A stretch of 64,000 bases of DNA from a virus. The position numbers and the translations under genes were made by a program. Position 1 is the first letter of the stretch; each line of letters starts with the position of its first letter. Below the pieces are notes generated by a model. It was given only the letters and a program-made list of their open reading frames with translations. It had not been told where the DNA came from and did no database searches. This document shows, piece by piece, positions 39,877 to 63,341 of this stretch. The stretch lies in IMG/VR virus record IMGVR_UViG_3300030202_002737, positions 1 to 64,000 of that record. One strand, written 5' to 3'.

Positions 39877-42038
39877 GCGATATATTTTATTCCCAAGTTA
39901 ATCGAAAGTTAGCAAATGAACTTGAATTAAGAGGCCAGGCAGGAAAAACTGGTCGTAGTACCAAACAATTAAATTATATGTTGGGTAAAATTGCAAATGT
40001 AGAATTAACAGCATATCAAGCAAAAGACAATCCAACAGAAGAATCTAAAACGATATCAACTGAAGATGTCCCTTTATATACTCTAGGAGGTAAAAAGTTA
40101 AGATCAGGCCTGTTTATGCCATCTGGAGAAGATGGATATTTAAATCGACATTCCAAAAGGCCAGAACCAGTTATAACCGGTGTTACAGTTAATATTGCAG
40201 ATAATGCACAATTTGCAATAAATACTTCTACTGTAACAATATTAATTCAAGATCCAATTGATTTAGATGTAATAGAAAGAATTTTTTTTAAGCCAGGTCG
40301 TGTAGTTAAATTAACAGTACAACATCCAGAATCTGCTATATTGAGTGAAGACGAACCTGGTCTTCCAGGAAATGCCCTATCTAAATCAGAATTAGTAACG
40401 TCAACAAGGATTTTACAAAATGAATTTCCTGCAGAAATGATTGATGAATTTTTAAAAATGGATAGGCTAGTATTTACTGGATTGGTAAGCTCGTTTAATA
40501 TAAAATATAATGATGACGTATCAATAACAGCTACATTAAGTTTACGAGCAACTGCCGGCACCTACCCAGACGCATCATTTTTTATAACCAATCCAGATAT
40601 AGAATTATTAACTAGAGACGAAACAGTTGATCAAGAAATCGGATCAGCTGATACTTCTCAAAATTTTCATGAATTTATTCAGAAAAAAGTAAATACTGAA
40701 TTAAAAGATTCCAATGACGGATACACAAATCCTATAGAAATTCCAATTTCAAAAAAAATTACTATAAACGAAGAAGATATAGCCCTGAATGATCGTTCTA
40801 TATTATATGGTTCATTAAAAAAGCAAAAAAAGGATAATGCCGATGCAGTTAAATCAAAGAAGCCTGAAGATACCTTTATAACATTAGGATTGTTAATTGA
40901 CTATCTAGATGACTATATAGGTGCCGTAATTAAAAATAATTCTACTACTATAGGAAACCAAGATTTATTATTTTGCAATGATCAATTATGTTTTAGTAAT
41001 TATTATGAACATTTAGTTTCTGCAGATCCAACTAGAGTATTATTATGGCCTGGAACCAATGATTTTAATACAAATGTATATAGACAATTTCCTGAATCGC
41101 GATCTGGTATAACAGCTTATAGCCAAACCTCTCCAAAGACACCTGGTTTTTTTGAAAATAGAGAATTTCAAAAATTTGATACTGCGGGAGAAGACGCCGG
41201 TATGACAGAATCAAAAACATATGGTCATCCGTCAAGGATTTATATTAATTTAAAAGTAATAAAAGAAATAGTAGAAACATTAACAGCTGAATCAACTGCG
41301 GAAAAGCCAACTACAATAAAACAATTTTTAAATAAAATTAAAGAAGAAATAGGACAGCAGACTTCATATGCTATAAGAATGGCATTAATACAACATCCTG
41401 ATATTCCAGATGCACTGTTATATTATGATACTAATTATCTAGGAAAAGATAAACAAGCCGTACCAGAATTTGAAATTCCTGTTTTTTCAGGTAAAGGCTC
41501 AGGCACGGTTGTGAGAGAATTTAAATTAGGATTTGACTTACCTGATGCATATAAAACAACATTGATCGGATTTGCTGGAACGCAACCTTCTGCAACTTCA
41601 TTAACGGCATTTAATCCATATATTTTTAGCGATTCTGAAGAAGCAAAAGCTATACGTAAAGATGAATTTGAAAAAAATTATATTGCTAGTTTAATGGCTA
41701 TTAAAAATGCAAAAGAAGCATATGGTAATGATCAAAGTGAGTCTAATATAGCATCATTGCAAAAGGCAATATCTGGTCATATTGCCTATCCCGATGTATC
41801 TCCAGAAAGTGCGTGTAATATAAATGCTCCAATTTGGCCAATGAATTTAGAATTTACAATAGATGGTATAAATGGATTCATATACGGCGATGTTTTATTT
41901 TTTAGAGGATTACCATCTAGATATAATCAACAATTTGTTTTTAATATTAGTAAAATAAAGCATACGATATCAGACTCGGGTGAATGGACTACAAGTATTA
42001 CCTGTTTTGCAAGATCACGTATATTAGAGATAACATAA
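39873..42038 (+). CDS. Large baseplate or hub protein, not firmly identified
   Basis: A 721-residue protein. Near 100-165 a beta-rich domain contains ITGVTVNIADNAQFAINTSTVTILIQDPIDL and KPGRVVKLTVQHPE, which reads like the first tube-fold domain of baseplate hub proteins (gp27/gpD type). The extreme C-terminus FNISKIKHTISDSGEWTTSITCFARSRI is typical of phage hub or late-control proteins, where it precedes the spike gene. Helical insertions lie between. I place it in the baseplate hub by these features and position. Confidence 0.5.
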   Translation: MSDIFYSQVNRKLANELELRGQAGKTGRSTKQLNYMLGKIANVELTAYQAKDNPTEESKTISTEDVPLYTLGGKKLRSGLFMPSGEDGYLNRHSKRPEPVITGVTVNIADNAQFAINTSTVTILIQDPIDLDVIERIFFKPGRVVKLTVQHPESAILSEDEPGLPGNALSKSELVTSTRILQNEFPAEMIDEFLKMDRLVFTGLVSSFNIKYNDDVSITATLSLRATAGTYPDASFFITNPDIELLTRDETVDQEIGSADTSQNFHEFIQKKVNTELKDSNDGYTNPIEIPISKKITINEEDIALNDRSILYGSLKKQKKDNADAVKSKKPEDTFITLGLLIDYLDDYIGAVIKNNSTTIGNQDLLFCNDQLCFSNYYEHLVSADPTRVLLWPGTNDFNTNVYRQFPESRSGITAYSQTSPKTPGFFENREFQKFDTAGEDAGMTESKTYGHPSRIYINLKVIKEIVETLTAESTAEKPTTIKQFLNKIKEEIGQQTSYAIRMALIQHPDIPDALLYYDTNYLGKDKQAVPEFEIPVFSGKGSGTVVREFKLGFDLPDAYKTTLIGFAGTQPSATSLTAFNPYIFSDSEEAKAIRKDEFEKNYIASLMAIKNAKEAYGNDQSESNIASLQKAISGHIAYPDVSPESACNINAPIWPMNLEFTIDGINGFIYGDVLFFRGLPSRYNQQFVFNISKIKHTISDSGEWTTSITCFARSRILEIT

Positions 42039-42667
42039 TGAGAAACAAAATATATTATTTAAATGATGAAATAAATAACGGATTATTTACTACCGGTAGT
42101 GAATGGATGTTAGAAGATTTAACAGAATACAAAGGATCTTACCATTCTTATATTACAGGCGAAGTATATACCGAAGCCGCATGGAATCCAATAACATCGA
42201 AGCCATTATTAAAATTTAAATTAAATGAAACAAATACTGTAGAATATAATACATTAAAACCTAATATTAAAACTTCATATGATTCAGTAACCCAAAGCCA
42301 ACCAACTATAAACAATGAAGATATAAAAAAGCAATCGATAACAAGATATTTTTTACAAAATGTATCATCACGAATTATATATGAAGTTGATAAAGAACAA
42401 TATGAATCCCATTCAACGCAAAAAATAGATGCTAATTTGTATACTGCAGTTAAATTAACATGGTTTATCGCAGGACTTAAAAATTCAAACCACCACAGAA
42501 ATCAACTTACTAGTATCAAACAAAAAGCAGTATACGAAAAAAATGCAGAGCAAATTGAAATTGCTGCAGCCATAATGCCAAATATACGAAATTATCTAAC
42601 TAATTTAGAAGAATTTTATTTTGATACCTCATATATATCTCCACCAGATATAAATGGATTAGAATAA
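42038..42667 (+). CDS. Conserved-looking virion-region protein, unknown function
   Basis: A 209-residue protein from the ATG at 42038 that shares its A with the previous stop; an in-frame ATG at 41984 lies inside the previous gene. The N-terminus IYYLNDEINNGLFTTGSEWMLED is followed by EYKGSYHSYITGEVYTEAAW, a pattern seen next to T4-like baseplate genes. The C-terminus is helical. It is the last gene before the class B region of the PolA-like gene, so probably the last structural gene of this block. Confidence 0.7.
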   Translation: MRNKIYYLNDEINNGLFTTGSEWMLEDLTEYKGSYHSYITGEVYTEAAWNPITSKPLLKFKLNETNTVEYNTLKPNIKTSYDSVTQSQPTINNEDIKKQSITRYFLQNVSSRIIYEVDKEQYESHSTQKIDANLYTAVKLTWFIAGLKNSNHHRNQLTSIKQKAVYEKNAEQIEIAAAIMPNIRNYLTNLEEFYFDTSYISPPDINGLE

Positions 42668-42669
42668 AT

Positions 42670-42699
42670 TTGGATTTTTATAAATAATTTATTATTATA
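42670..42699 (+). promoter_or_regulatory. Class B promoter-like pair TTGGAT-17-TATTATA
   Basis: TTGGAT at 42670-42675 and TATTATA at 42693-42699, 17 bases apart, ending 7 bases before the ATG at 42707. It starts the PolA-like operon. Confidence 0.6.
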
Positions 42700-42706
42700 T
42701 TAATGT

Positions 42707-44062
42707 ATGATAATAATAGACGATTCCGCAGAACTAGATTCGTTATTACAAGAAATTAAAAAAGAAGAAGTTGTATTAGTTGTTCCAATATTAACAGACC
42801 ACCAACTTCACCCCTCAATCAATAAAATATCTTGTATATACGTATATTCAAGCAATGAAATTGAATTCATTGTTCCTATACATCATACTGAACAAATAAC
42901 CGGGTTTAAAGAACATCTAAATAAATTACTCGAGCTAGAATCTATATTTGTTCATGACAAAAAGTTATGGTTACAAATGGGCGGAAATAATACAGTTTTT
43001 GATGTAAAAAGTTTGTGGTGGTATACATATAACGAAGCATATGATGATAATCATTATTATACCTCTGCCCATAATTTTTATTGGAGAAGGCACACTAATT
43101 TACAACATGTTAATACAATTGTCCCATTAATGAAACACGTAGAAATGTGTCAAAAAATACGAAAGTATGCATGGCCGATGATTGTTAATCAAAAATTATC
43201 AGAAATTAGATCAACAGAAAGTGGATATGCTTCATATATTCGATTTAATATGATTTATCCAAGAATATTTGCTGAAATTGAATCTAACGGAATACAAGTT
43301 AATGATTCTTTTAAAATGAAAGAGTTAATTACTGACGGACGAGTTTATTCAAATTATCATTATCATACAACTACAGGTCGTCCTTCAAATGCATTCCGTG
43401 GATTCAATTTTGCAGCAATGAATAAACAAGACGGCACTAGAGATGCATTGTGTAGTAGATTTGAAAACGGAGCATTAGTTGAATTTGATTTTGATGCATA
43501 TCATGTAAGACTAATTGCAAGACTAATTGGATATGAATTGCCACCAGGATCTATACATACATATTTTGGTAAATTTTATTTTGGTACTGAAACGTTAACA
43601 TCAGAACAATATGAACAAAGTAAACAAATAACATTTAGATTGTTATATGGCCATATAGAAAAAGAATTTTTAAAGATTCCATTTTTTCAAGAAATAAATG
43701 ACTTTGTGTATTCATTATGGAGTGAATGGAAAAAAGATGGATATATAGAAACACCATTATTAAAAAGGAGATTGTATAAAGATAGTTTGTCTAATATGAA
43801 TCAAAACAAATTATTTAATTATTTTCTTCAAGCATTCGAAACAGAATTTACTGCAAATCGATTAAATCAATTATCATACTTGTTAAAGGGGTATAAAACA
43901 TGTATTATATTATATACATATGATTCTGTGTTATTTGATGTCCCAATTCATAATGCTAAAGAAATATTACCAAAAATAAAATCATGTTTAGAAGGAGATG
44001 ATTTTCCTGTTAAATGTAAAGTAGGCAATATTTATAGTAAAATGAGTGATATCAAGTTATGA
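42707..44062 (+). CDS. Divergent family-A (PolI-type) DNA polymerase
   Basis: A 451-residue protein with a recognisable PolA palm/fingers. TGRPSN is at 223-228 (TGRLSS region). Motif A is EFDFDAYHVRLIARL with D261, but His266 stands where PolA has its steric-gate Glu. Motif B is YEQSKQITFRLLYG at 302-315 (K306, F310, Y314-G315), lacking the first Arg. DGYIETPLLKRRL at 344-356 matches GYVETxxGRRR, and motif C is TYDSV at 404-408 (D406). The first 150 residues resemble a 3'-5' exonuclease without its acidic residues (VVPILTD where DIET is expected). The window also encodes a PolB, so this is a second polymerase. Confidence 0.8.
   Translation: MIIIDDSAELDSLLQEIKKEEVVLVVPILTDHQLHPSINKISCIYVYSSNEIEFIVPIHHTEQITGFKEHLNKLLELESIFVHDKKLWLQMGGNNTVFDVKSLWWYTYNEAYDDNHYYTSAHNFYWRRHTNLQHVNTIVPLMKHVEMCQKIRKYAWPMIVNQKLSEIRSTESGYASYIRFNMIYPRIFAEIESNGIQVNDSFKMKELITDGRVYSNYHYHTTTGRPSNAFRGFNFAAMNKQDGTRDALCSRFENGALVEFDFDAYHVRLIARLIGYELPPGSIHTYFGKFYFGTETLTSEQYEQSKQITFRLLYGHIEKEFLKIPFFQEINDFVYSLWSEWKKDGYIETPLLKRRLYKDSLSNMNQNKLFNYFLQAFETEFTANRLNQLSYLLKGYKTCIILYTYDSVLFDVPIHNAKEILPKIKSCLEGDDFPVKCKVGNIYSKMSDIKL
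44028..44036 (+). promoter_or_regulatory. Class A-like box inside polymerase 3' end
   Basis: ATATTTATA, 22 bases before the ATG at 44059, at the usual class A distance, but inside coding sequence (Asn-Ile-Tyr), so it may be chance. Confidence 0.25.
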
Positions 44063-45393
44063 TAGATAAAATTATAAATGAATGGACATACCAATTGGAA
44101 GTTGGGTATCCAACAAAAGAATCAGATTACGAAGTACTTCGTTCTGTGTTACAAGAAACCAATATGCTTTCTGAACAAGAAATTCATAACACAGTATTGC
44201 AAGCACAAGGTATATTCGAGTCAAAAGAAAATACCGATCGTATTAAAAATGATATACAATCATTACAAGGCGCAGGACCAAATCCAATATATGTTTCCAC
44301 AGATAGTCAAATCATTATTAATAATTTTAATAAACGATCTAAAGAATTCAAATTAGGCGTAGCAGATTATTTGAGAGATAATAATATAGAAAGTGATATC
44401 GATAACGGATTTCTAGATTTAACTATAGACACGTCTACATCAAAATTTGCAAAGGATTTAAAATTTAACGTTCCTAAAGCTAGCGCGGATCAATATATGG
44501 ATTTTAGTAATCCAGAAATGTTCCAAAATTTTATATATGATGAATATGGAGCAGACGGACAAGAATTCAACGGATTACCAGAATTATATAAAGCAGTTAA
44601 AGAAAGTCCTAATTCAAACGAATTAATGAATCTAATAACAGATTTAAATAAAAAACCACTTAAATCTGGAGACTATGTAATAAAAGGTATAGACGCTGAA
44701 TTATATAATTTAATTAATAGAACGGTAAGAATACCAAACGGACATTATTCAGAGTTATGGTTTGCAATTAAATTTAATGGTGAAGTTAAAGGCGGTGTTG
44801 CTGGAGAAAGTATAGTATCAGACATAGATGTAGGCGCTGACGGAGTATCTTTAAAAGATTATGAAAAAATTTCTACCGTTGATTTTGGTAATTTAACAGC
44901 TGATACTGCTATATTATTAAAAACAGCTGTTAATTCATTTGAAATGTTAACAGGTATGCAAATTAATAAGTCGATGACGAGAGATTCTATCAATGCAATA
45001 CTAGATAATTTAGATTCTGAAGAGTTAAAAAATGACATAAGATCATTAATGCAAATATCAAAAGATACTGAGATAAAAGTTATACGAAGATTTGTTGATA
45101 AATTACAAAGATTTATGCCAGACGGTAATCCAGAAAGAATTGTAGAAAATTTTTGTGCGCAATTAGATAACACAATTAAAGCAAAATTATCAGATGGAAA
45201 TGTAAGATGGTGGGGTATTATTAACAAAGGTGTATTATATTTAGAAACTAGTGATGAGGTATATAGCGCACTTAAATGTAAAAATAATAGAATATCACCT
45301 GCAGTTGGAAATTTTAAAGGATTTCATTTATTTGTAAATGGAAATAGAATTAACGCAGCTATTAAAGATATGAGATTAGCACAAGAGGGGTAA
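44059..45393 (+). CDS. Polymerase-operon protein of unknown function, possible nuclease
   Basis: A 444-residue protein overlapping the PolA-like gene by four bases (ATGA). The middle contains HYSELWFAIKFNGEVKGG, then ESIVSDIDVGADGVSLKDY near 227-272. The order of acidic residues followed by V-S-L-K recalls PD-(D/E)xK nucleases, but the match is weak. The N-terminal 150 residues and the C-terminus (FKGFHLFVNGNRINAAIKDM) have no motif. Tight coupling suggests it works with the polymerase. I do not recognise a family. Confidence 0.75.
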   Translation: MIDKIINEWTYQLEVGYPTKESDYEVLRSVLQETNMLSEQEIHNTVLQAQGIFESKENTDRIKNDIQSLQGAGPNPIYVSTDSQIIINNFNKRSKEFKLGVADYLRDNNIESDIDNGFLDLTIDTSTSKFAKDLKFNVPKASADQYMDFSNPEMFQNFIYDEYGADGQEFNGLPELYKAVKESPNSNELMNLITDLNKKPLKSGDYVIKGIDAELYNLINRTVRIPNGHYSELWFAIKFNGEVKGGVAGESIVSDIDVGADGVSLKDYEKISTVDFGNLTADTAILLKTAVNSFEMLTGMQINKSMTRDSINAILDNLDSEELKNDIRSLMQISKDTEIKVIRRFVDKLQRFMPDGNPERIVENFCAQLDNTIKAKLSDGNVRWWGIINKGVLYLETSDEVYSALKCKNNRISPAVGNFKGFHLFVNGNRINAAIKDMRLAQEG

Positions 45394-45395
45394 AT

Positions 45396-45779
45396 GTGAG
45401 AACGCAACTATTGTGCACATTTGCACATAAAACTAATTTAGAGATTGTTACTGAATATATTAAACAAAACTTCGAAATCCCAGAAAATAGAATTTTTATT
45501 TTTGCAAATTATGCAAAGCGTAATGAATTATATTGCACATTTAACGCAGAAGACAATGGATACAGAGGTAAAAATACAATTTCAATACACAGAAAAAAAG
45601 AAACAAATACATTATACACAGTTAATGCATTAAATGAAGTTATTAAAGATCTAAATAATGGGATATTAGATAAAACAATGATTATTCCATGGGATGCATT
45701 TGAAAATTCGTTTATATTATTAGACGATCCTGGGTATAAAAGAATAGACTTAGTATTTGTACGAAGAATTAATTTTTAG
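45396..45779 (+). CDS. Small protein of the PolA operon, GTG start
   Basis: A 127-residue alpha/beta protein. The start is GTG at 45396, because the nearby ATG at 45394 runs at once into TGA. The N-terminus RTQLLCTFAHKTNLEIVTEYIKQNFEIPENRIFIFAN looks like a beta-alpha-beta fold; the end is VFVRRINF. It follows the 444-residue gene after two bases and is followed by a class A box, so it closes the class B operon. Unknown function. Confidence 0.7.
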   Translation: MRTQLLCTFAHKTNLEIVTEYIKQNFEIPENRIFIFANYAKRNELYCTFNAEDNGYRGKNTISIHRKKETNTLYTVNALNEVIKDLNNGILDKTMIIPWDAFENSFILLDDPGYKRIDLVFVRRINF

Positions 45780-47064: not shown

Positions 47065-47841
47065 ATGAGTTTAGATTTAGACGCCATTAGAGCGAAACTT
47101 AACCAATTAAACACGACTAACGACAGAAAAAATAATTATTTCAGACCAGAACCTGGTAAGCAAAGAGTAAGAATAGTCCCTTACGTTCACCGCAAAGAAA
47201 ACCCTTTTTTAGAAATGTATTTTCATTATGATATTGCAAAGCGTAGTATGCTTTCGCCTATCACATTTGGTAATGCAGATCCAGTAGTAGAGTTTGCTGA
47301 AAAATTAAAGAAAACTGGCGATAAAGACGATTGGTTAATGGGTAGAAAAATTGAGCCTAAAATGAGAACATATGTTCCTGTTATCGTAAGAGGAAAAGAA
47401 TCAGAAGGCGTTAAATTTTGGGGATTCGGAAAAACAATTTATTCTGAATTATTATCTATTATAGCAGATCCTGATTATGGCGACATTACAGACTTAATGA
47501 ATGGTAGAGACATTGATATTGAATTTACCCCATCAGAAGGACCTGGACAATATCCAAAGACTGCTATTAGAGTTAAACCTAATACATCTGCAGCTACTGA
47601 AGATAAAGCAATTGCAAAATCAATATTAGATCAACCTAAAATAACAGATCTATTTCCAGAGCCGACATATGAAGAATTACAGCAAGCATTAAATGATTGG
47701 ATGAATCCAGAAAGTGCTGACTCTGATACAAGTGCTGCTCCAGCAGCTTCAACTGAAACAAAATCGAAAGACACTGCAACAAAAACACCAGAAACAAAGA
47801 CTGATGTAGCAGACGCATTTAACGATTTATTCAATAATTAG
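47065..47841 (+). CDS. Single-stranded DNA-binding protein (gp32-like)
   Basis: A 258-residue protein with gp32 architecture. The basic N-terminal cooperativity segment is at 1-20 (LDAIRAKLNQL). An OB-fold core contains YFRPEPGKQRVRIVPYVHRKENPFLEMYFHY near 25-55 and YVPVIVRGKESEGVKFWGFGKTIYSELL near 107-134. The C-terminus is low-complexity and ends with DAFNDLFNN, the acidic-aromatic tip used for protein contacts. It lacks the Cys/His zinc site of T4 gp32. It is followed by UvsX in a replication operon. Confidence 0.85.
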   Translation: MSLDLDAIRAKLNQLNTTNDRKNNYFRPEPGKQRVRIVPYVHRKENPFLEMYFHYDIAKRSMLSPITFGNADPVVEFAEKLKKTGDKDDWLMGRKIEPKMRTYVPVIVRGKESEGVKFWGFGKTIYSELLSIIADPDYGDITDLMNGRDIDIEFTPSEGPGQYPKTAIRVKPNTSAATEDKAIAKSILDQPKITDLFPEPTYEELQQALNDWMNPESADSDTSAAPAASTETKSKDTATKTPETKTDVADAFNDLFNN

Positions 47842-47852
47842 GAAAGTTTATT

Positions 47853-49010
47853 ATGGCAAAGAAAAAGAGCGAACTGGAAGATTCATTAGCTTCAACTCTT
47901 GCAGATAGCATTAATAAACAATTTAAAGGGCAAAATTATAAATCGGCATTCTTCTTAGATGGAGATGCCGATGCTCCGACAAATGTTAATGAATGGATAT
48001 CTACCGGATGTTCAATGTTAGATTTAGCTATTTCAAATCGTCCAAATGGAGGTTTTCCTGTTGGTAGAATTACTGAAATAACAGGACTTGAGGCTTCGGG
48101 TAAATCCTTGTTAGCAGCTCATACCTTAGCAGAGACACAAAAGCGAGGCGGATTAGCAGTATATATCGATACAGAATCAGCAAGTAGCGCAGAATTTTTA
48201 ACGGCAATTGGTGTAGATTTAAAAACTATGCTATATGTTCCATTAGAAACAATCGAAGAAATATTTGAAACTATTGAGACTATTGTTGAAAATGTTAGAA
48301 AGTCTGACAAAGATAGATTAGTAACTATAGTAGTCGACTCAGTCATGGGTGCATCTACTAAAATTGAAATGGCTATGGAATATGATAAGGATGGATATGC
48401 AACTTCTAAATCTATTATATTAAGTAAAGCTATGAGAAAAGTTACCAATTGGATAGCTAGAGAAAGAATATGTTTAATATTCACTAATCAGTTAAGAACT
48501 AAATTAGGCGTATCGTTTGGAGACCCATGGACAACAGCAGGAGGAAAAGCTTTACCATTTCACTCATCAGTTAGACTTCGTTTGAAAAATACCGGAATGA
48601 TTAAAGCTAGAGTAAATGGAGCTGATCAGGTTGTTGGAAATAAAACCAATGTACATGTTGTAAAGAATAGAATGGGTCCTCCTAATAGAAAAATTGATTA
48701 TGAAATATATTATGATAGTGGAATTGACAACTATGGTGGTTGGTTAAATATCATGAAAAATTTTAAATTAGTTTCACAATCAGGAGCTTGGTATTCATTA
48801 GACGATGTTGATCCAGACACGGGAGAAGTTCTAAGTACAGTTAAATTTCAAAGTAAAGATTTTATAGAAAAAGTAATAGAAAACACAGAAATGAAAGACA
48901 GATTGTACAATCGAATTTGCGAAGCATATATTTTTAAATATCGTGCTGGTGTAGATGGCGGTATTGATGATGTAGTAGTTGATGAAGAAGTTATAAACGA
49001 AGAAGGATAA
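47853..49010 (+). CDS. RecA/UvsX-like recombinase
   Basis: A strand-exchange protein of 385 residues (T4 UvsX is 391). Walker A GLEASGKS is at 78-85, Walker B TIVVDSV at 158-164. The L2/DNA-binding region follows with IFTNQLRTKLGVSFGDPWTTAGG near 210-232. The N-terminal helix LEDSLASTLADSINKQF is typical of UvsX. It acts with the SSB in recombination-dependent replication and repair. Its stop overlaps the next start (TAATG), so the exonuclease is translationally coupled. Confidence 0.9.
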   Translation: MAKKKSELEDSLASTLADSINKQFKGQNYKSAFFLDGDADAPTNVNEWISTGCSMLDLAISNRPNGGFPVGRITEITGLEASGKSLLAAHTLAETQKRGGLAVYIDTESASSAEFLTAIGVDLKTMLYVPLETIEEIFETIETIVENVRKSDKDRLVTIVVDSVMGASTKIEMAMEYDKDGYATSKSIILSKAMRKVTNWIARERICLIFTNQLRTKLGVSFGDPWTTAGGKALPFHSSVRLRLKNTGMIKARVNGADQVVGNKTNVHVVKNRMGPPNRKIDYEIYYDSGIDNYGGWLNIMKNFKLVSQSGAWYSLDDVDPDTGEVLSTVKFQSKDFIEKVIENTEMKDRLYNRICEAYIFKYRAGVDGGIDDVVVDEEVINEEG

Positions 49011-50059
49011 TGAATAAATATCAAGAATTATTTAAGCAACTTCAAATTGAAAAAGAAAGTATTCCACAAGGGCCTGACGATCATTTAATGATTTTTGACG
49101 GCCTGAATACTTTTATTAGAAGTTTTTCTGCAACGCCATCTACCAATGAAGATGGAGAACATATAGGAGGCATTACTGGATTTTTATATAGCATTGGAAA
49201 ATGTGTTAGAGATTTTAAACCATCTAGGTGTATTATTGTTTTTGATGGTGTAGGTGGATCTAAGCGAAGAAAAAAGATTTACAAAGATTATAAAGGTAAT
49301 CGTGTTAATAAAACAAGGTTACGAAGACATGATCATCATATGCCTAGTATTGAGCATGAGCAAGAAGCTATGCGACATCAATTCAGCAGATTAGTTTCAT
49401 ATTTAGATGCATTACCAGTTACCTTTTTATCAATGGATGGAATTGAAGCAGATGATACTATTGCATATATTACTGAAATGTATGAAGCTAAAAGTAAAAA
49501 AATAACAATTGTATCAACTGACAGAGACTTTTATCAATTAATTAATGATAAAATTCAAATTTGGTCACCTATTAAAAAGAAATTGTATGATACAGAAAAA
49601 TTATTAGATGAATTTCAAGTACACCCTAAAAACTATGTATTATATAGAGCATTTACAGGAGATAAGTCAGATAATATTCCTGGTGTAATGGGTATAGGGC
49701 CAAAGACATTATTAAAACATGTTCCTAATTTGAATCAAGAACAAGAATATAAATTAGATAATCTTTGGGAAACATGTAACAAAAACATTGATGAATCTAA
49801 AACATATAAAAAGATATTAGATAATGAAAATATAATATCTGACAATTGGAAACTAATGAATCTAAAACTATTAGATATTCCAGCACAAACAAAAAGTAAT
49901 ATTAGAAAAATAATGGAATCGACTGTATCTGAATTAAATAAAGTAGAATTTAGAAAACTATTTATGGAAGATAAGATGTGGTCCGTTATGAAAAATATGC
50001 CTGATTGGTTAAACAATACATGGTTATCATTGAGTGCCTTCGCACAAAAAACAAAATAA
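49010..50059 (+). CDS. 5'-3' exonuclease (T4 RNase H/FEN family)
   Basis: A flap and RNA-primer exonuclease, 349 residues. Acidic metal ligands are in order: D30 (MIFDGLN), D79 (IVFDGVGGS), E146/D148/D149 (GIEADDT), D171 and D173 (STDRDF), D218 and D221 (GDKSDNIPGV). The helix-hairpin-helix GVMGIGPKTLL follows at 225-235. The KRRKKIYKDYKGNR arch-type helix is present near 85-98. It removes primers during lagging-strand synthesis. T4 RNase H is 305 residues. Confidence 0.85.
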   Translation: MNKYQELFKQLQIEKESIPQGPDDHLMIFDGLNTFIRSFSATPSTNEDGEHIGGITGFLYSIGKCVRDFKPSRCIIVFDGVGGSKRRKKIYKDYKGNRVNKTRLRRHDHHMPSIEHEQEAMRHQFSRLVSYLDALPVTFLSMDGIEADDTIAYITEMYEAKSKKITIVSTDRDFYQLINDKIQIWSPIKKKLYDTEKLLDEFQVHPKNYVLYRAFTGDKSDNIPGVMGIGPKTLLKHVPNLNQEQEYKLDNLWETCNKNIDESKTYKKILDNENIISDNWKLMNLKLLDIPAQTKSNIRKIMESTVSELNKVEFRKLFMEDKMWSVMKNMPDWLNNTWLSLSAFAQKTK

Positions 50060-50094: not shown

Positions 50095-51450
50095 ATGACA
50101 GATAAGTTAAGTGAGTATGGATGGTCTTTTCAGGTTAAAGTTTTGGCAGCTATGTTTGTGGATAGAACATTTCTTCAACAGATTGCTGATATTATTCAAT
50201 CAGATTATTTTGAATCTGATGCTAATAGTTGGTTATTAGATATATTAATAGAACATTTTCGAGAATATAAAACGCCCCCTTCAAAAGACGTTTTAAAAGT
50301 TAAAGTTACTGAAATAGACAATGATATTCTTAAAGCAGCAATTTTAGAACAATTAAAAGATGTATTTCGATATATGGAGTCAGATGATTTAGACTTTGTA
50401 AAAAATGAAATACTAAAATTTTGTAAGAATCAAGAAATTAAGCGAGCTATTATGGATTCAGTTGGACTACTAAAATTAGGTAGTTATGATGAAATAAAAA
50501 GCAAAATGGATTCTGCAATGAAAGCTGGAGCTGACACAGATATTGGCCATGAATATAAAAAAGATGTTGTAGCAAGATATACCGAATCAGCTAGGCATAC
50601 TATAAGCACTGGATGGGATGTAATTGACGATTTAATGGATGGCGGATTAGCTCCCGGCGAATTAGGCGTAGTAATGGCTCCTGCAGGAATTGGTAAATCA
50701 TGGATGCTTATTAATATTGGAGCTAATGCTGTAAAGCAAGGAAAAACAGTTATACATTATACGTTAGAATTAAACGATAATTATGTAGGTCAACGATATG
50801 ATAGTGTAGTAACTGGTATTGCAGCTCAAAACTTAAAACATCACACAGACGATATAGAAGAAAAATTAGAAACACTTCCAGGTGAGTTGATTATAAAATA
50901 TTATCCAACAAAATCTACAGGTGTAATGGGTATTAAAGCTCATATTGAAAAAACTATAATGCTAGGAAATACTCCAGATTTAATTGTAGTAGATTATGGC
51001 GATCTTTTAAAGGTTAATACTAAAAAAGATAAGCATGAAGCATTAGAAGAATTATATGAAGAAATGAGAGGCATGGCAGGCGAATATAATATTCCAGTTT
51101 GGACAGCATCTCAAGCAGGTAGGTCTGCATTGGAAGATGATATTATAGAAGCTGATAAAATTGCTTCTTCATATGGTAAAGTAATGGTAGCTGACTTTTT
51201 AATGTCATTGTCTAGAAAAGTAGAAGATAAGTTATCAGGAACAGGTAGAGGTCATGTTATTAAAAACAGATTTGGTCCAGATGGTATTACATTACCAAGT
51301 AAAATAAATACAAATAACGGTCAGTTTAATTTCTTTGAACCGCAGACTACTCAAGGTAGACAAACAACTCAAACAATGAAGACAGGCGAAACATTAGTTA
51401 AGAAAAATTTAGCACAAAAGTTTAAAGATCTAGGCGGAAGTTTAGGGTAG
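50095..51450 (+). CDS. Replicative DNA helicase (DnaB/gp41-like)
   Basis: A hexameric fork helicase, 451 residues (T4 gp41 is 475). Walker A APAGIGKS at 195-202 follows LAPGELGVVM. Walker B LIVVDYGDLL is near 296-305. A conserved Gln lies in WTASQAGRSA, followed by KNRFGPDGI near the C-terminus. The N-terminal 150 residues form the helical domain that in gp41 contacts primase. No primase gene is visible in this window. Confidence 0.9.
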   Translation: MTDKLSEYGWSFQVKVLAAMFVDRTFLQQIADIIQSDYFESDANSWLLDILIEHFREYKTPPSKDVLKVKVTEIDNDILKAAILEQLKDVFRYMESDDLDFVKNEILKFCKNQEIKRAIMDSVGLLKLGSYDEIKSKMDSAMKAGADTDIGHEYKKDVVARYTESARHTISTGWDVIDDLMDGGLAPGELGVVMAPAGIGKSWMLINIGANAVKQGKTVIHYTLELNDNYVGQRYDSVVTGIAAQNLKHHTDDIEEKLETLPGELIIKYYPTKSTGVMGIKAHIEKTIMLGNTPDLIVVDYGDLLKVNTKKDKHEALEELYEEMRGMAGEYNIPVWTASQAGRSALEDDIIEADKIASSYGKVMVADFLMSLSRKVEDKLSGTGRGHVIKNRFGPDGITLPSKINTNNGQFNFFEPQTTQGRQTTQTMKTGETLVKKNLAQKFKDLGGSLG

Positions 51451-53461: not shown

Positions 53462-55115
<1,654 letters not shown>

Positions 55116-55125
55116 AAATAAAAGA

Positions 55126-55440
55126 ATGAGTTTTAGTTTTTTAGATCCAAATAAAGTTGACCGAAATATGTTTTACAAATGTGTAAATACATTGTCAGAT
55201 AAAGATGGTATAGAGCTACATATGCTCAATGACGCTGTTTTACTCGATTATAATAAAAACCTAGATGAATTTTTATCATATTTAATCTCAGTAGGAGAAC
55301 ATCTTGAAGAATATGAAAAATGTAGTCAATTGATTATACAACAAAAAAAATATAAAAAATGGTTAACAATTAATTTAGAAACTGTTAAATCAGTATCCGA
55401 ATTATTAAGTAGCTTAAAATTAAAACATGATAGTAAATAA
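55126..55440 (+). CDS. Small helical protein at head of deazapurine operon
   Basis: A 104-residue protein, MSFSFLDPNKVDRNMFYKC, with three or four helices and a Lys-rich end. It has no motif, signal or membrane segment. It is the first gene behind a class B pair and is followed by FolE2 after one base. It could be expressed early with the nucleotide genes. Unknown function. Confidence 0.7.
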   Translation: MSFSFLDPNKVDRNMFYKCVNTLSDKDGIELHMLNDAVLLDYNKNLDEFLSYLISVGEHLEEYEKCSQLIIQQKKYKKWLTINLETVKSVSELLSSLKLKHDSK

Positions 55441-55441
55441 T

Positions 55442-56461
55442 ATGGCAGAAAAAAATAATACTAAATATGAGTGGTTCGATGATGTCGAATCTCATAAAAT
55501 AGCAGAAGAAAATAAACATTCAGTAAATTATCATGAACCTGAACGAGATTATGATTCAGACTATAAACCAACTAAAAATGATATAGAAACATTTCCAGAT
55601 TTACAAAATGGCCCTTCTTCTTTAATACAAGGAGCTCCTGTAGCTATTCAACAAGTTGGTATTCATAATTTTCGTCTTCCTTTAAAATATAAAAAGCGTG
55701 ATGGCGGTGATATTGAATTAGAAACTAAAGTAACTGGAAATGTTTCTTTAGCAGCACATAAAAAAGGTATTAACATGTCTCGTATTATGCGATCATTTTA
55801 TAAGTTTAAAGATGATTATGTCTTCGGAGAATTAGATACTATTTTATTAAAGTATAAAGATGATTTAGAATCATTTGATGCTAAGATTGGATTACATTTT
55901 TCATATCCAATATTACAACCATCATTAAGATCTGATAATGCTGGATATCAATATTATAATGTAACATTAGAAGGCAATATTGACGACAAAGGAACTTTTA
56001 AAAAGATACTTCACTTTGACTTTGTATATTCATCTGCATGTCCTTGTTCATATGAATTAGCAGAATATGCTAGAAAATATAGGAATAAAGCTACAGTATC
56101 ACATTCACAAAGATCTGTTGCAAGAATATCAGTAGAGTTTGATGAATTAGTATGGATTGAAGATCTACAAGAAATTTGTGAAAAAGCTTTACGTACTGAA
56201 ACTCAAGTTGTTGTTAAACGTGAAGATGAAATGGCATTTGCTGAATTAAATGGATCATATTTAAAATTTGTTGAAGATGCAGCTAGATTATTGTATGAAC
56301 AATTAATTGAGGATAAAAGAATTAAAGATTTTAGAGTTATTTGCTCACATCAAGAATCGCTACACTCACATGACGCAGTATCAGTAATATTAGCACCTAA
56401 TAGCAAATTTTCTAGTGATATTCCGCATGAATTATGGTCAAGCTTAATACATATATCATAA
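55442..56461 (+). CDS. folE2: GTP cyclohydrolase I type FolE2
   Basis: Converts GTP to 7,8-dihydroneopterin triphosphate, the first step toward folate and 7-deazaguanines. 339 residues from the ATG at 55442, one base after the previous stop; the in-frame ATG at 55427 overlaps that gene. The family marks are QQVGIHNFRLPL near 77-88, ACPCSYELA with C200 and C202, and SHSQRSVARISVEF near 220-233. The N-terminal 65 residues are a charged extension. QueD- and QueE-like genes follow closely, so the product probably feeds preQ0 rather than folate. Confidence 0.85.
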   Translation: MAEKNNTKYEWFDDVESHKIAEENKHSVNYHEPERDYDSDYKPTKNDIETFPDLQNGPSSLIQGAPVAIQQVGIHNFRLPLKYKKRDGGDIELETKVTGNVSLAAHKKGINMSRIMRSFYKFKDDYVFGELDTILLKYKDDLESFDAKIGLHFSYPILQPSLRSDNAGYQYYNVTLEGNIDDKGTFKKILHFDFVYSSACPCSYELAEYARKYRNKATVSHSQRSVARISVEFDELVWIEDLQEICEKALRTETQVVVKREDEMAFAELNGSYLKFVEDAARLLYEQLIEDKRIKDFRVICSHQESLHSHDAVSVILAPNSKFSSDIPHELWSSLIHIS

Positions 56462-56618: not shown

Positions 56619-57082
56619 TGGGAAAACATCAATCAAGTAAAGTTTTTGACGGATTTAGTACAGTGTTTCGTCAATGGAAAGCAGAAAATACACATTGTAG
56701 ATTTTTACATGGGTATGGAATATCATTTAAAGTATATTTTGAAGGTGAATTAGACCACAGAAATTGGGTTTGGGACTTTGGAGGAATGAAAAGAGCTAAA
56801 ACTCTTATAGATGGAATGCAACCTAAAGCTTGGATGGATTATATGTTTGACCATACTGTAGTAGCAGCAAAAGACGATCCTGCAGTTGATGTTTTAGAAG
56901 AAATGAATGAAAGAGGTATTATACAATTGAGATGGATCGAAGCAACAGGCGCCGAAAAGTTTGCTGAATATATTTATAACAAGTTAAATGACTTTGTTAA
57001 AACAGAAACAGATAACAGAGTAAGAGTTACAAAAGTTAAGTTCATGGAGCACGGTAAAAATGCAGCATATTATGGTGAATAA
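56618..57082 (+). CDS. queD: 6-carboxytetrahydropterin synthase-like (QueD family)
   Basis: Second step of preQ0 synthesis by family. 154 residues with the QueD layout: catalytic C27 in HCRFLHGYG, WVWDFGGMK near 50-58, MFDHTVVAA near 73-81, and a terminal EHGKNAAYYGE. Odd points: the canonical HGH zinc pair is H31-G-Y33, and the first zinc His expected near 16-17 is absent, though H26 is close. The zinc site must therefore differ or be lost. The gene overlaps the small membrane gene before it and the radical SAM gene after it. Confidence 0.8.
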   Translation: MGKHQSSKVFDGFSTVFRQWKAENTHCRFLHGYGISFKVYFEGELDHRNWVWDFGGMKRAKTLIDGMQPKAWMDYMFDHTVVAAKDDPAVDVLEEMNERGIIQLRWIEATGAEKFAEYIYNKLNDFVKTETDNRVRVTKVKFMEHGKNAAYYGE

Positions 57083-57857
57083 AAAATTAAAAAGACTTAA
57101 AGATTATAATAAAACAATTCCTGTATTAGAAATATATAGATGTGTTCAATCAGAAGGGTCAAGATTTGGAAGACCCACAATAGCAGTTAGAACAACAGGA
57201 TGTACACATAGATGCTACTTTGGAGAAGGTGGTTGGTGTGATAGTTGGTATACAAGTATTCATCCAGAAAAAGGTACATTTACATTTAATGATATTATTA
57301 AAATATATGATGAAAATCCTCATGTAAAAGAAATGATGTTAACTGGTGGATCACCAACAATGCATCCAGCATTAGTAAATGAAATTATGCACTTTGCAAA
57401 CGAAAGGGGAATATTAGTTACTATTGAAACAGAAGGAAGTCATTTTCTCGAAACTGATTATCCAATTGACTTAATATCTTTATCTCCTAAATTTTCTAAT
57501 TCAGTTCCTGTCTTAGGTGCAATAACTCCTAATGGATCAGTTACAGATGAACGAATGATTAAAGTTCATAATAGATTAAGAATGAATAAAGATGCAATGC
57601 GTAAGACATTAGATTATCATAAAGATTATCATTTTAAACCTGTATGGGATGGCACTGAAAAGAATCTAAAAGAAATAGAAGAATTTAGAATTGAAATGGA
57701 TATTCCTAAACATAAAACTTATGTAATGCCGGCTGGAGATACTAGAAAAACATTAATGGAGATGTATCCTATAGTATTTGAAATGGTAGCAGAACATGGC
57801 TATAATATGACAGGAAGAGATCATATTATAGCATATGACACTGAAAGAGGAGTATAA
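57072..57857 (+). CDS. queE: 7-carboxy-7-deazaguanine synthase-like radical SAM enzyme (QueE)
   Basis: Third step toward preQ0 by family: ring contraction to 7-carboxy-7-deazaguanine. 261 residues from the ATG at 57072 (the frame also opens at 57060; both overlap queD). It starts LEIYRCVQSEGSRFGRPTIAVRTTGC, the QueE opening. The iron-sulfur motif is C44-x3-C48-x7-C56, not the usual C-x3-C-x2-C, through a five-residue insertion (YFGEGGW). LTGGSPTMHP near 92-101 is the GGE/SAM motif region. No QueC is in the window. Its stop overlaps the next small gene. Confidence 0.8.
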   Translation: MVNKKLKRLKDYNKTIPVLEIYRCVQSEGSRFGRPTIAVRTTGCTHRCYFGEGGWCDSWYTSIHPEKGTFTFNDIIKIYDENPHVKEMMLTGGSPTMHPALVNEIMHFANERGILVTIETEGSHFLETDYPIDLISLSPKFSNSVPVLGAITPNGSVTDERMIKVHNRLRMNKDAMRKTLDYHKDYHFKPVWDGTEKNLKEIEEFRIEMDIPKHKTYVMPAGDTRKTLMEMYPIVFEMVAEHGYNMTGRDHIIAYDTERGV

Positions 57858-59556: not shown

Positions 59557-60591
59557 ATGATTAGATATGGCTATGCGTGCGTTAACGCAACACTAACGAA
59601 TAGACCCAAGAAATTAGGCGGTAGAGTTACTACTTCCCGTACGGCTAGAAAAGCTTCTTGGTATCCTAATAATTTACAACTTATTAGTGACAAAGCATTA
59701 GACAATGCAAAAGATTTACTCACTTATCTCAAATGGAATGAAGAGCATGGTATTACGTTATTTCGTGTAGGCTCTGAATTATTTCCATGGCATGATCAAT
59801 ACGAATTACATGATCTTCCAGACTACGAAGAAATTGCTCAGCACTTATTCGCTGCAGGTGAATTTGCTAGGCAACATGGTCATAGATTAACTACACATCC
59901 TGGTCCGTTCCATGTATTAGGTTCCCCTAGACAAGATGTTGTAGAAAAAAGTATTATTGGCTTAGAACGACATTCTGAAATGTTTGATCTTATGGGGTAT
60001 GAGCCATCGTTTCATAACAAGATCAATATTCATGTAGCTGGTGCTTATGGTGATCGTGAAGCTACTGCTAAGCGGTGGATCAAGACTTGGCAACGACTAT
60101 CTGACTCCCTAAAAGCTAGATTAGTTTTAGAAAACGATGACAAGGCATCTATGTACAGCGTAAGGCATCTATACGACCTTATACACCAAGAAATTGGTAT
60201 TCCTATTACATTTGACTATTGGCATCATACCTTCTGTACAGGCGATTTAACAGAACGTCAAGCATTCTTTATGGCAAAGTCTACCTGGGATAAACATGGT
60301 GTTACTCAATGTACTCATTACTCTGAGTCTAGACGACAAGAGCAAAAGTTATTGATAGAAAAAATGTTGAATCATAATAATATACCATTATCAGAATTAC
60401 ACTTATGGCCGACCTTTGAAAAAGAATACAAAATATTTAGCAAGATCAAAGAGCCTGCTCATGCAGATTATATTGTGAATACTCCTAATACTTATAACGT
60501 TGAAAATCTAGACATCGTTGTAGAAGCTAAAGCAAAAGAGTTAGCTATTTTACCGGTATTGGAAAAACAAAAAAAATTACTTATAATATAA
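59557..60591 (+). CDS. uvsE: UV damage endonuclease (UVDE/Uve1 family)
   Basis: Nicks DNA beside UV photoproducts to start alternative excision repair; 344 residues. TIM-barrel family marks are MIRYGYACVNATL at 1-13, RVGSELFPWHDQ near 71-82, HRLTTHPGPFHVLGSP near 109-124, INIHVAGAYGDRE near 152-164, RLVLENDD near 182-189, and FDYWHHTFC near 214-222. The His/Glu/Asp residues in these supply the metal site. T4 uses the unrelated DenV glycosylase. It has its own class B pair. Confidence 0.9.
   Translation: MIRYGYACVNATLTNRPKKLGGRVTTSRTARKASWYPNNLQLISDKALDNAKDLLTYLKWNEEHGITLFRVGSELFPWHDQYELHDLPDYEEIAQHLFAAGEFARQHGHRLTTHPGPFHVLGSPRQDVVEKSIIGLERHSEMFDLMGYEPSFHNKINIHVAGAYGDREATAKRWIKTWQRLSDSLKARLVLENDDKASMYSVRHLYDLIHQEIGIPITFDYWHHTFCTGDLTERQAFFMAKSTWDKHGVTQCTHYSESRRQEQKLLIEKMLNHNNIPLSELHLWPTFEKEYKIFSKIKEPAHADYIVNTPNTYNVENLDIVVEAKAKELAILPVLEKQKKLLII
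60559..60588 (+). promoter_or_regulatory. Class B promoter-like pair TTGGAA-17-TATAATA
   Basis: TTGGAA at 60559-60564, inside the UV endonuclease 3' end, and TATAATA at 60582-60588 after 17 bases. It ends five bases before the ATG at 60594 and would drive the membrane gene and polymerase. Confidence 0.5.
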
Positions 60592-60821: not shown

Positions 60822-63341
60822 ATGTATCAGAATATAGCATATCATAAAAAAACAAGCACAATGCACGTATGGGATGACGAATTAGGTCATAAAACTTTTA
60901 AGTTTAAGCCATATGGGTATATTCCAGATCCGAGTGGAGAATATATATCATTAAATGGAACTAAGTTAGCAAAGACTCCAGGTAATCATAGAGATAATTC
61001 AGATGCATATGAATCTGACTTAAATGAAGAGGTTAGAACATTAATAGACTTATATTATGAATCTGATTTAGTCTCGACTGGCCATGCTGATTTCTTCTTT
61101 GATATTGAAACAGCAAAAGACGCAGATGGTTATTCTACTCCGCAAGATGTTAGAACCGAAATAACATCGATAGCATATTATGACAAAGTTGGTAAAGATA
61201 GAAGAGTATTAGTATTAGACAAAGAAAATAGATTATCTGATGATATTATATATGGTGATAACTATACTGTTGAGGTATTTGACAATGAAGCTAACTTATT
61301 AATTAAATTTATTAACTATTTTTCAGAAATACAACCTACTGTTATAACTGGTTGGAATACTGATGGATATGATATTCCTTATCTTATTAATAGGATTAAA
61401 AAAGTGTTAGGTCCTAAGTCTGCAAATAAATTATCACCAGCTGGGATTGTAGAATGGAATAAGCATCGCGAAAAATATAAAATATTTGGCGTATCGAGTT
61501 TAGATTATATTAAATTATATAAGAACTTTACATATTCAGAACTTCCTAATTATAGATTAGACACTGTAGGTAAAACAGAATTAGGCAAAGGTAAAATTGA
61601 ATATGATGGCGACTTAGACGATTTATTTGTTTCAGATATTAACAAGTTTATAGAATATAATATGACGGATGTTGATCTTGTATATGAGTTAGATGAAAAA
61701 TTACAATTAATTAACTTAGCAAGAACAATATGTCACAAAGGCCATGTTCCATATGAAGACGTTTATTATGCATCTAAATATCTAGACGGCGCCGCTATTG
61801 TAGATTTAAAAAGAAACGGGCTGGTAGCTCCAAATAAACAATTTAGATTTGTTGAAGACGAAGAGCAGAATAAATTAGCAGGCGCATATGTTATGCCTCC
61901 AATTCCAGGATTATATAAATGGATATATGATTTAGATTTAACTTCTCTGTATCCTTCAATTATTATGAGTCTTAATATATCTCCAGAAACAAAAATAGGC
62001 GTTATTCCAAATTGGAAACAAGAATCATTATTAAGTAAAGAAGCTGTTAGTGTACAATGTAATGGCCAAACTATACCAGATATTAAACAATGGTTAATTG
62101 ATAATAAATTTACTGTTGCAAGTAACGGAGTAGTATATGATACAAGAAGTAAAGGATTCTTACCAAAGATATTAGAGAAATGGTTTGACGAACGTGTTAA
62201 ATTTAAGAATGAGCGAGATAATCATGAAGTTGGTAGTGATAAGTATAAATTTTATGATGCAATGCAATTAACACAAAAAGTATTGTTAAATTCATTTTAT
62301 GGAGTATTAGGATTAAAGACATTTAGATTTCATGACTTAGACAATGCAGGAGCTATTACAGCAACTGGCCAAAGTGTTATTAAATTTTCAGCAAAAGTTA
62401 TTAATAAATATTATGAAAAGGAAGTTGGCAAAGATTATTTTATTAACGCTAATGGCAACAAAGCCGAATTTTCATTTTATACGGATACAGATTCAACATT
62501 TGTATCTAGTTTACCTCTTATAGAAAAAAGATATCCCGGATTTGATGAATCAGATGAAAAGTTTATGATTGAAAAAACAAATGACATTGCGTCTGAGATA
62601 CAAGCTCATGTTAACAAAATGTATGATCAATATGCAGTTCACTTTCATAATACATTTGATCATCGATGGCAAATTAAACAAGAATATGTTGCTAAATCTG
62701 GTCTATGGATAGCAAAAAAGAGATATGCTCAATGGGTAATCTTTAAAGAAGGAAAACCCACAGATAAAATGGATATTAAAGGTCTAGACGTAGTAAGATC
62801 ATCTTTCCCTACAGAGTTTAAAACTATAATGAAAGAAACATTATGGTATGTACTCAAAGAAAAGTCAAAAAATGACACAACTAATTTAATAATGGATTTT
62901 AAAGACAAAATACAAGATTCTCCAATATTAGATGTTATGAAGAATACAGGTGTTAAAAATGTCACAAAGTATACAAAAGGTAGAAAGCCATTATCTGGAT
63001 ATCTGTCTGGAACTCCGATTCATGTTAAATCTGCAATTAATTACAATGATATGTTAAAACATTTAGGTATTAATAGAAGAAGTAAAGTAATTCCTGAAAT
63101 TCAGAATGGAGATAAAATTAAATGGGCATATCTTAAAACAAACGCTATGGGGTTTGATTCTATTGCCCTTCGTGGTTATGATGATCCAAGAGAATTAACA
63201 GAATTTGTAGAAAAATATATTGATAGGAATAAGATATTTGATAGAGAGATTCGTGGCAAATTAGATGATTTTTATGCATCTATGAATTGGGATAAACTTC
63301 CTGAAAATAATAATATGAATAAATTCTTTTCATTTGGATAA
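60822..63341 (+). CDS. Family-B replicative DNA polymerase (gp43-like)
   Basis: An 839-residue replicase (T4 gp43 is 898). The proofreading Exo I motif FFFDIETAKD has D94 and E96. Exo II lies in ITGWNTDGYDIPYL near 175. Pol motif A DLDLTSLYPSIIM has D370. Motif B is KVLLNSFYGVLGL near 486. Motif C YTDTDS has D555 and D557. NISPETKIG follows motif A as in gp43. Both proofreading and polymerase centres look intact, so this is the main replicase; the PolA-type gene at 42707 must have another task. Confidence 0.95.
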   Translation: MYQNIAYHKKTSTMHVWDDELGHKTFKFKPYGYIPDPSGEYISLNGTKLAKTPGNHRDNSDAYESDLNEEVRTLIDLYYESDLVSTGHADFFFDIETAKDADGYSTPQDVRTEITSIAYYDKVGKDRRVLVLDKENRLSDDIIYGDNYTVEVFDNEANLLIKFINYFSEIQPTVITGWNTDGYDIPYLINRIKKVLGPKSANKLSPAGIVEWNKHREKYKIFGVSSLDYIKLYKNFTYSELPNYRLDTVGKTELGKGKIEYDGDLDDLFVSDINKFIEYNMTDVDLVYELDEKLQLINLARTICHKGHVPYEDVYYASKYLDGAAIVDLKRNGLVAPNKQFRFVEDEEQNKLAGAYVMPPIPGLYKWIYDLDLTSLYPSIIMSLNISPETKIGVIPNWKQESLLSKEAVSVQCNGQTIPDIKQWLIDNKFTVASNGVVYDTRSKGFLPKILEKWFDERVKFKNERDNHEVGSDKYKFYDAMQLTQKVLLNSFYGVLGLKTFRFHDLDNAGAITATGQSVIKFSAKVINKYYEKEVGKDYFINANGNKAEFSFYTDTDSTFVSSLPLIEKRYPGFDESDEKFMIEKTNDIASEIQAHVNKMYDQYAVHFHNTFDHRWQIKQEYVAKSGLWIAKKRYAQWVIFKEGKPTDKMDIKGLDVVRSSFPTEFKTIMKETLWYVLKEKSKNDTTNLIMDFKDKIQDSPILDVMKNTGVKNVTKYTKGRKPLSGYLSGTPIHVKSAINYNDMLKHLGINRRSKVIPEIQNGDKIKWAYLKTNAMGFDSIALRGYDDPRELTEFVEKYIDRNKIFDREIRGKLDDFYASMNWDKLPENNNMNKFFSFG

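Follow-up and report, generated by a model that had tools for sequence, protein, structure and literature searches.

The window, that is, the whole stretch of 64,000 nucleotides analysed here (positions 1 to 64,000 of IMG/VR record IMGVR_UViG_3300030202_002737), contains a gene for a predicted small family-A DNA polymerase (small PolA) at the junction between a block of baseplate genes and a set of recombination and replication genes (Table 1). Its open reading frame runs through 451 codons without an internal stop. The same gene order, consisting of baseplate genes, a gene of ~220 aa, the small PolA, a gene of 127–150 aa, gp32, UvsX, FEN and DnaB, was common to all subfamilies. The flap nuclease is a separate gene in the window phage, unlike in E. 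coli Pol I, and the DNA ligase gene of this phage is located elsewhere in the genome.

Table 1 Features of the small polymerase gene and its surroundings in the window
Feature	Coordinates	Strand	Basis
Conserved gene just before the polymerase, closing the baseplate block; probably a structural gene	42038..42667	+	
Predicted small accessory family-A DNA polymerase ('His-gate' PolA), 451 aa	42707..44062	+	ORF, profiles, model
Vestigial 3'-5' exonuclease-like N-terminal part, residues ~1-130	42707..43096	+	alignment, model
Putative reduced thumb, long helices 141-168 and 172-194	43127..43288	+	DSSP and pLDDT of model
Motif A DFDAYHVR, residues 261-268: catalytic D261, D263, His266 for the gate Glu	43487..43510	+	
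O-helix motif Y302...K306...F310...Y314-G315	43610..43651	+	
Motif C Y405-D406-S407, Tyr for Pol I His881	43919..43927	+	
444-aa mosaic protein	44059..45393	+	start overlaps polymerase stop by 4 bases (ATGA)
Constant N-terminal segment, ~54 aa, EWxYxLxxGYPTxxxDY	44059..44220	+	
Exchangeable C-terminal domain, candidate PD-(D/E)XK nuclease-like, E232, D255, K266	44497..45390	+	
127-aa conserved partner, HRKKETNTLYTxNALN block nearly invariant	45396..45779	+	
gp32-like single-strand DNA-binding protein	47065..47841	+	profile matches
UvsX/RecA-like recombinase	47853..49010	+	profile matches
Stand-alone 5'-3' exonuclease (FEN)	49010..50059	+	profile matches
DnaB-like replicative helicase	50095..51450	+	profile matches
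UvdE-type UV-damage endonuclease, just before PolB	59557..60591	+	
PolB replicase, 839 aa, full length	60822..63341	+	profiles, motifs

Profile and fold comparisons both pointed to family A. The Pfam DNA_pol_A profile matched residues 205–438 with E=3.7e-8 and 33.1 bits, against a curated cut-off of 34.3, and it matched 68 of 101 relatives at E<=0.1, with several relatives exceeding the curated cut-off. PHROG_17 DNA polymerase matched the polymerase ORF with E=5e-14, and the profile of the 101 relatives found Klenow with E ~2e-6. In the AlphaFold model, for which the 101 sequences served as input (pLDDT 92.8, pTM 0.90), the order of the palm elements is present: a strand at 256–262 with D261, the O-helix at 299–314, and a hairpin at 399–404/407–412 that carries D406. 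The first-pass annotation, which had proposed a PolA-type enzyme and named structure prediction and profile comparison as its checks, is borne out by both, and the palm whose absence would have spoken against it is present. For the meeting of D261 and D406 in one active site, their alignment with D705 and D882 serves as a stand-in. Foldseek placed Klenow (1kfd) first among the PDB matches of the model, at E=2e-20, 16% identity and a query TM of 0.77; Pol theta and Pol nu came next. These two enzymes are likewise exonuclease-dead members of family A, but they are longer, contain inserts and show no special sequence kinship with the small PolA. Pol theta and Pol nu also retain the Glu gate. Taken at the level of the model, the phage enzyme is a predicted family-A polymerase with a Klenow-like fold, sharing with E. 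coli Pol I the motif order A, B, C and both catalytic Asp residues. This assignment is independent of the gate residue; the His gate described below marks a variant clade rather than a canonical Pol I.

The residues were mapped to Klenow through the family-profile alignment (101 relatives), which gave D261=D705, H266=E710, Y302=R754, K306=K758, F310=F762, Y314=Y766, N371=N845, Q375=Q849, Y405=H881 and D406=D882. Among 190 distinct full-length relatives, R225, D261, D263, H266, K306, F310, Y314, G315, Y372, Q375, T379 and D99 were invariant, as was D406 in all sequences reaching that position. The equivalents of Klenow K758, F762, Y766-G767, R668, N845 and Q849 are kept in the small PolA, those of Arg668 and Gln849 in the 190 relatives as well. 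The His that had been noticed in place of the steric-gate Glu is therefore not peculiar to this phage, being found in 190/190 relatives. When divergent subfamilies found through the neighbouring gene were added, R225, D261, H266, Q375 and D406 were still invariant (60/60) and K306 was present in 59 sequences, the remaining residue being ambiguous; D263 was replaced by Thr in 8 of this widened set of 60.

The O-helix motif RxxxKxxxFxxxYG retains its K, F and YG in the small PolAs, and its first Arg is mostly Tyr. The earlier statement that this Arg is lost was correct for the window protein (Y302), and in the clade this loss is frequent without being universal: the Arg754 position is Tyr in 172/190 and Arg in 18/190, with further Arg cases in the widened set. 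The invariant gate His and the variable Arg754 position indicate that the His gate is a firm signature and the loss of Arg a tendency. In Klenow, the loss of Arg754 lowers nucleotide binding, and its loss in most members means that the enzyme activity might be weak. Of the other motifs listed in the first-pass annotation, K306, F310, Y314-G315 and D406 are kept across the 190 relatives, but the 'GYIET..RR' block is no family hallmark (position 346 is Tyr in 110/190, position 355 Arg in 95/190).

To compare these positions with those of known enzymes, small PolAs were aligned with 13 canonical PolAs, including E. coli Pol I, T7, T5-like, N4-like, crAss-like, HMO-2011 and Thermus P23-45, and with 6 immuto-type replicases. 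The Glu gate, Arg754 and His881 were present in 19/19 comparators, and His, Tyr and Tyr were found in all small enzymes aligned there. The canonical phage replicases sampled (T7 gp5, T5-like, N4-like, crAss-like, HMO-2011, immuto gp199) belong to family A as well but keep these three residues, unlike the small PolA, which forms a separate clade. The exonuclease acids D355, E357, D424 and D501 were lost in every small PolA aligned and kept in the canonical comparators having an exonuclease domain, with T7 exo I unaligned and the Alsa_1 record a fragment in this comparison. No exonuclease-domain match was found in the 101 small-PolA members searched. The loss of acidic ligands from the exonuclease-like N-terminal part, first noted in the window, is accordingly shared by all relatives aligned. 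The enzyme is also shorter than Klenow (451 vs ~605 aa). Two long helices linked by a short turn of low confidence in the model may represent a shortened thumb, which would imply low processivity.

Relatives of the small PolA were searched for by tblastn and in IMG/VR. With tblastn, full-length relatives were recovered from Microcystis phage Mel-JY01 and from four records of Flavobacterium immuto phage, as well as from an uncultured phage of 484 kb. Three queries against IMG/VR gave 200, 312 and 109 relatives, of which the best 80 per query were retained, and the small PolA is carried by at least several hundred related viral contigs. Identities among the 190 distinct full-length sequences go down to ~22%, and the divergent subfamilies surfaced when the 127-aa neighbour gene, rather than the polymerase, was used for searching. 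The only cellular matches among ~85,000 prokaryote species genomes were two contigs in metagenome bins, which suggests that the family is essentially viral. In the maximum-likelihood tree the small enzymes formed a single clade with support 100/100 and a stem of 2 changes per site; owing to the long branches, the exact sister of this clade is uncertain. The dN/dS of the polymerase against close relatives was ~0.11–0.22.

The strongest evidence for an accessory function is the retention of the small PolA in lineages whose replicases belong to different families. The PolB of the window has intact motifs, namely exo I (DIE), KVLLNSFYG and DTDS, and PolB was also found in window-type and most Mel-type records, including Mel-JY01, with split matches in the jumbo phage. 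No PolB was found in the immuto-type records searched; these genomes encode a separate canonical PolA of ~780 aa (E ~1e-57), annotated as gp199 in NC_055915, so that both a canonical and a small PolA occur in one genome. The clade member of Flavobacterium phage vB_FspM_immuto is gp001, annotated 'DNA polymerase family A', which is 30% identical and has the same gene order, but this phage differs from the window phage in having a PolA rather than a PolB replicase and no 444-aa gene between polymerase and partner. Most long records thus have another replicase-type polymerase (PolB or canonical PolA), as do the jumbo phage, Mel-JY01, immuto and the window phage itself, and the records outside the immuto type that have no PolB are short or fragmentary. 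Judged by gene content, the small PolA is best described as an accessory enzyme, neither the sole nor the main polymerase of the genome. This agrees with the original proposal of a second, divergent PolA beside an intact PolB, with a role other than that of the replicase.

The 127-aa protein is an obligate companion of the small polymerase: in loci fetched via the 127-aa gene with >=3 kb of upstream sequence, the polymerase was present in 37/37, and the gene itself has at least 587 copies in viral contigs. PHROG searches with the 127-aa protein and with the protein of the upstream gene gave no usable family. Among 55 distinct upstream regions of the window type, 14 carry an exact copy of the AT-rich stretch at the polymerase start, TTATTATTATATTAATGTATG (~42687–42709), possibly a promoter or ribosome-binding element. 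An intrinsic terminator before the immuto-type gene appeared likely by eye, and the strict stem test was passed by 2/54.

The 444-aa protein showed a mosaic structure. Its coupling to the polymerase, proposed in the first-pass annotation, holds widely, as the 4-base overlap is kept in 90 of 92 related loci. In related phages the polymerase and the 127-aa partner are kept together; immuto has no 444-aa gene between them, and the C-terminal domain of the 444-aa protein is swapped between near relatives. The first 54 residues have ~72–89% identity among near relatives, while the remainder falls to 19–38% in several relatives whose polymerases are 83–91% identical and stays at 76–77% in others; the C-terminal parts formed four clusters unjoined by BLAST. 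D255 and K266 do not vary among the 41 members aligned, nor does E232 among the 17 closer ones, and the motif region is modelled in the order helix-strand-strand-strand-helix. Together with a weak Pfam RE_LlaMI match (E=0.009), these residues, which fit an E...D...(D/E/S)xK site, and the secondary-structure order suggest, as a lead, that the C-terminal domain may be a PD-(D/E)XK nuclease. A PDB fold search gave no match at E<=0.001, a PDB profile search with the family gave E>=0.3 throughout, and PADLOC gave scattered weak matches only. The swaps of the C-terminal part look like a rapid exchange of nuclease specificities.

Other ORFs were observed in the same slot. HNH-like or GIY-YIG-like ORFs, named by eye, are located right after the polymerase in some relatives (L365, L369, L380) and resemble homing endonucleases favouring polymerase genes. 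In divergent subfamilies (L409, L412, L416, L411, L428) large slot proteins of ~700–770 aa share related N-terminal segments (EWAYRTNDGQP, IKNGxLDLxNEDHVFVLQEYL), which may belong to one widespread phage N-terminal domain.

We give roughly an even chance to the reading that the small PolA is a non-proofreading, shortened accessory polymerase for gap filling and strand extension in recombination and repair. Its catalytic activity, distributive mode and DNA substrate, which we infer, would amount to templated synthesis without proofreading in short distributive patches, the substrates being gaps coated by gp32, UvsX-made D-loops and the gaps that the stand-alone 5'-3' exonuclease opens. That would be a 'split Pol I', with the small PolA as its polymerase half, working in recombination, repair and the filling of primer gaps. 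The fixed gene neighbourhood speaks for this reading, though it does not prove that the products act jointly. H266 would probably go on closing part of the sugar gate, with a changed or looser choice between dNTP and rNTP. In the window subfamily, a UvdE nick, removal by FEN, filling by the small PolA and a final ligation would together make up a complete excision repair, with UvdE as a possible upstream step for repair synthesis. UvdE was found in 5/5 window-type genomes and is missing from immuto-type and most Mel-type genomes, so that it was rejected as an obligate partner in general, and this chain cannot be what the enzyme does throughout the clade. With UvdE patchy and an ATP-type ligase found in 3/14 related records (3/4 genomes of the window subfamily), the clade as a whole is not explained by any one repair pathway.

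Several alternatives were weighed against gap filling and strand extension. Pol nu and Pol theta of animals are family-A lesion-bypass enzymes, and their place right after Klenow among the fold matches raises the possibility of a translesion polymerase, in which a loose grip on the triphosphate, missing proofreading and a short thumb would allow bypass of UV-induced or other lesions at which PolB or the canonical PolA replicase stops. We regard this as unlikely, though worth serious consideration: the exonuclease ligands have gone from every member, Tyr mostly stands in for Arg754, and the UvdE of the same subfamily hints at UV pressure, but the small PolA is shorter than all matched targets, so that the inserts seen in Pol theta and Pol nu are missing, and some members retain Arg754. 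The Glu of E. coli Pol I blocks ribonucleotides (PMC9324360), and its exchange for His without exception might mean that rNTPs are admitted, giving patches or primers that contain RNA. However, His, unlike Ala, is no smaller than Glu, so the 2'-OH could remain blocked, all 190 sequences of the first set have Phe at the 762 position, and a separate primase is present in most of the records checked, all of which leaves ribonucleotide use rather improbable. A priming-like role, also raised in the first-pass annotation, seems unneeded, and the substitution of a primase unlikely, since Toprim/DnaG-type primases occur in 10/14 related records, although none was found in the 112-kb fragment of the window phage.

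A more far-reaching version of the gate argument is speculative and in our judgement also rather improbable. In it the enzymes would form a distinct class whose obligatory His gate, with Tyr for Arg754 and His881, rewires the selection of sugar and triphosphate and gives a new substrate choice (mixed rNTP/dNTP or modified nucleotides); the enzyme, the invariant 127-aa partner and an exchangeable nuclease tethered by its N-terminus would make up a module of three parts. The replacement of H881 and usually R754, and a Pfam score slightly below the cut-off, would fit an inactive polymerase serving as a DNA-binding scaffold or loader for the adjoining recombination genes. But the metal, alpha-phosphate and primer residues are invariant across very divergent sequences, which is hard to explain without catalysis, and it is the catalytic residues themselves that are under purifying selection, which speaks against a dead enzyme; we consider this alternative very unlikely. 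A similarly slim chance is given to a late, virion-linked role in DNA completion or repair around packaging, as part of a baseplate-end operon. In nearly all loci the polymerase gene comes directly after the baseplate block, with virion genes upstream, and a late-type box, TATAAATA at 42679, ends 20 bases upstream of the polymerase in the window phage. However, the genes downstream are for recombination and replication, and TATAAATA is unenriched in the window (25 seen vs 21.8 expected) and precedes the polymerase in 1/53 distinct window-type upstream regions, so that it was rejected as a late promoter.

For most phages the use of a single DNA polymerase is assumed, and here a second family-A enzyme is kept by a large, mostly uncultured group of tailed phages. 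Its natural His alternative makes the textbook rule of the Glu gate testable and offers a new enzyme for nucleotide-analogue work, and the polymerase with its 127-aa partner can serve as a marker for a clade of T4-related aquatic phages, whose cultured members, Flavobacterium phage immuto and Microcystis phage Mel-JY01, allow direct tests. In the open-access papers searched, we found no description of the clade or of a family-A His gate, which does not prove that none exists. The text of a 2018 survey of virioplankton PolA does not mention motif A or position 710. A table in a 2025 jumbo-phage paper has 'DNA polymerase I' beside PolB without comment, and this label may refer to FEN.

FolE2 (55427–56461), a QueE-like radical SAM protein (57060–57857) and a TGT-like protein (genome positions ~66009–67274) together suggest a putative 7-deazaguanine DNA modification pathway in the window phage, and the immuto phage has annotated que genes and DpdA. 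The handling of modified nucleotides, another role once considered for the small PolA, has no steady correlate, and a link to TGT-like DNA modification was rejected as general, with a TGT-like gene in 3/18 records. The window phage also encodes a GroEL-type chaperonin (53471–55093).
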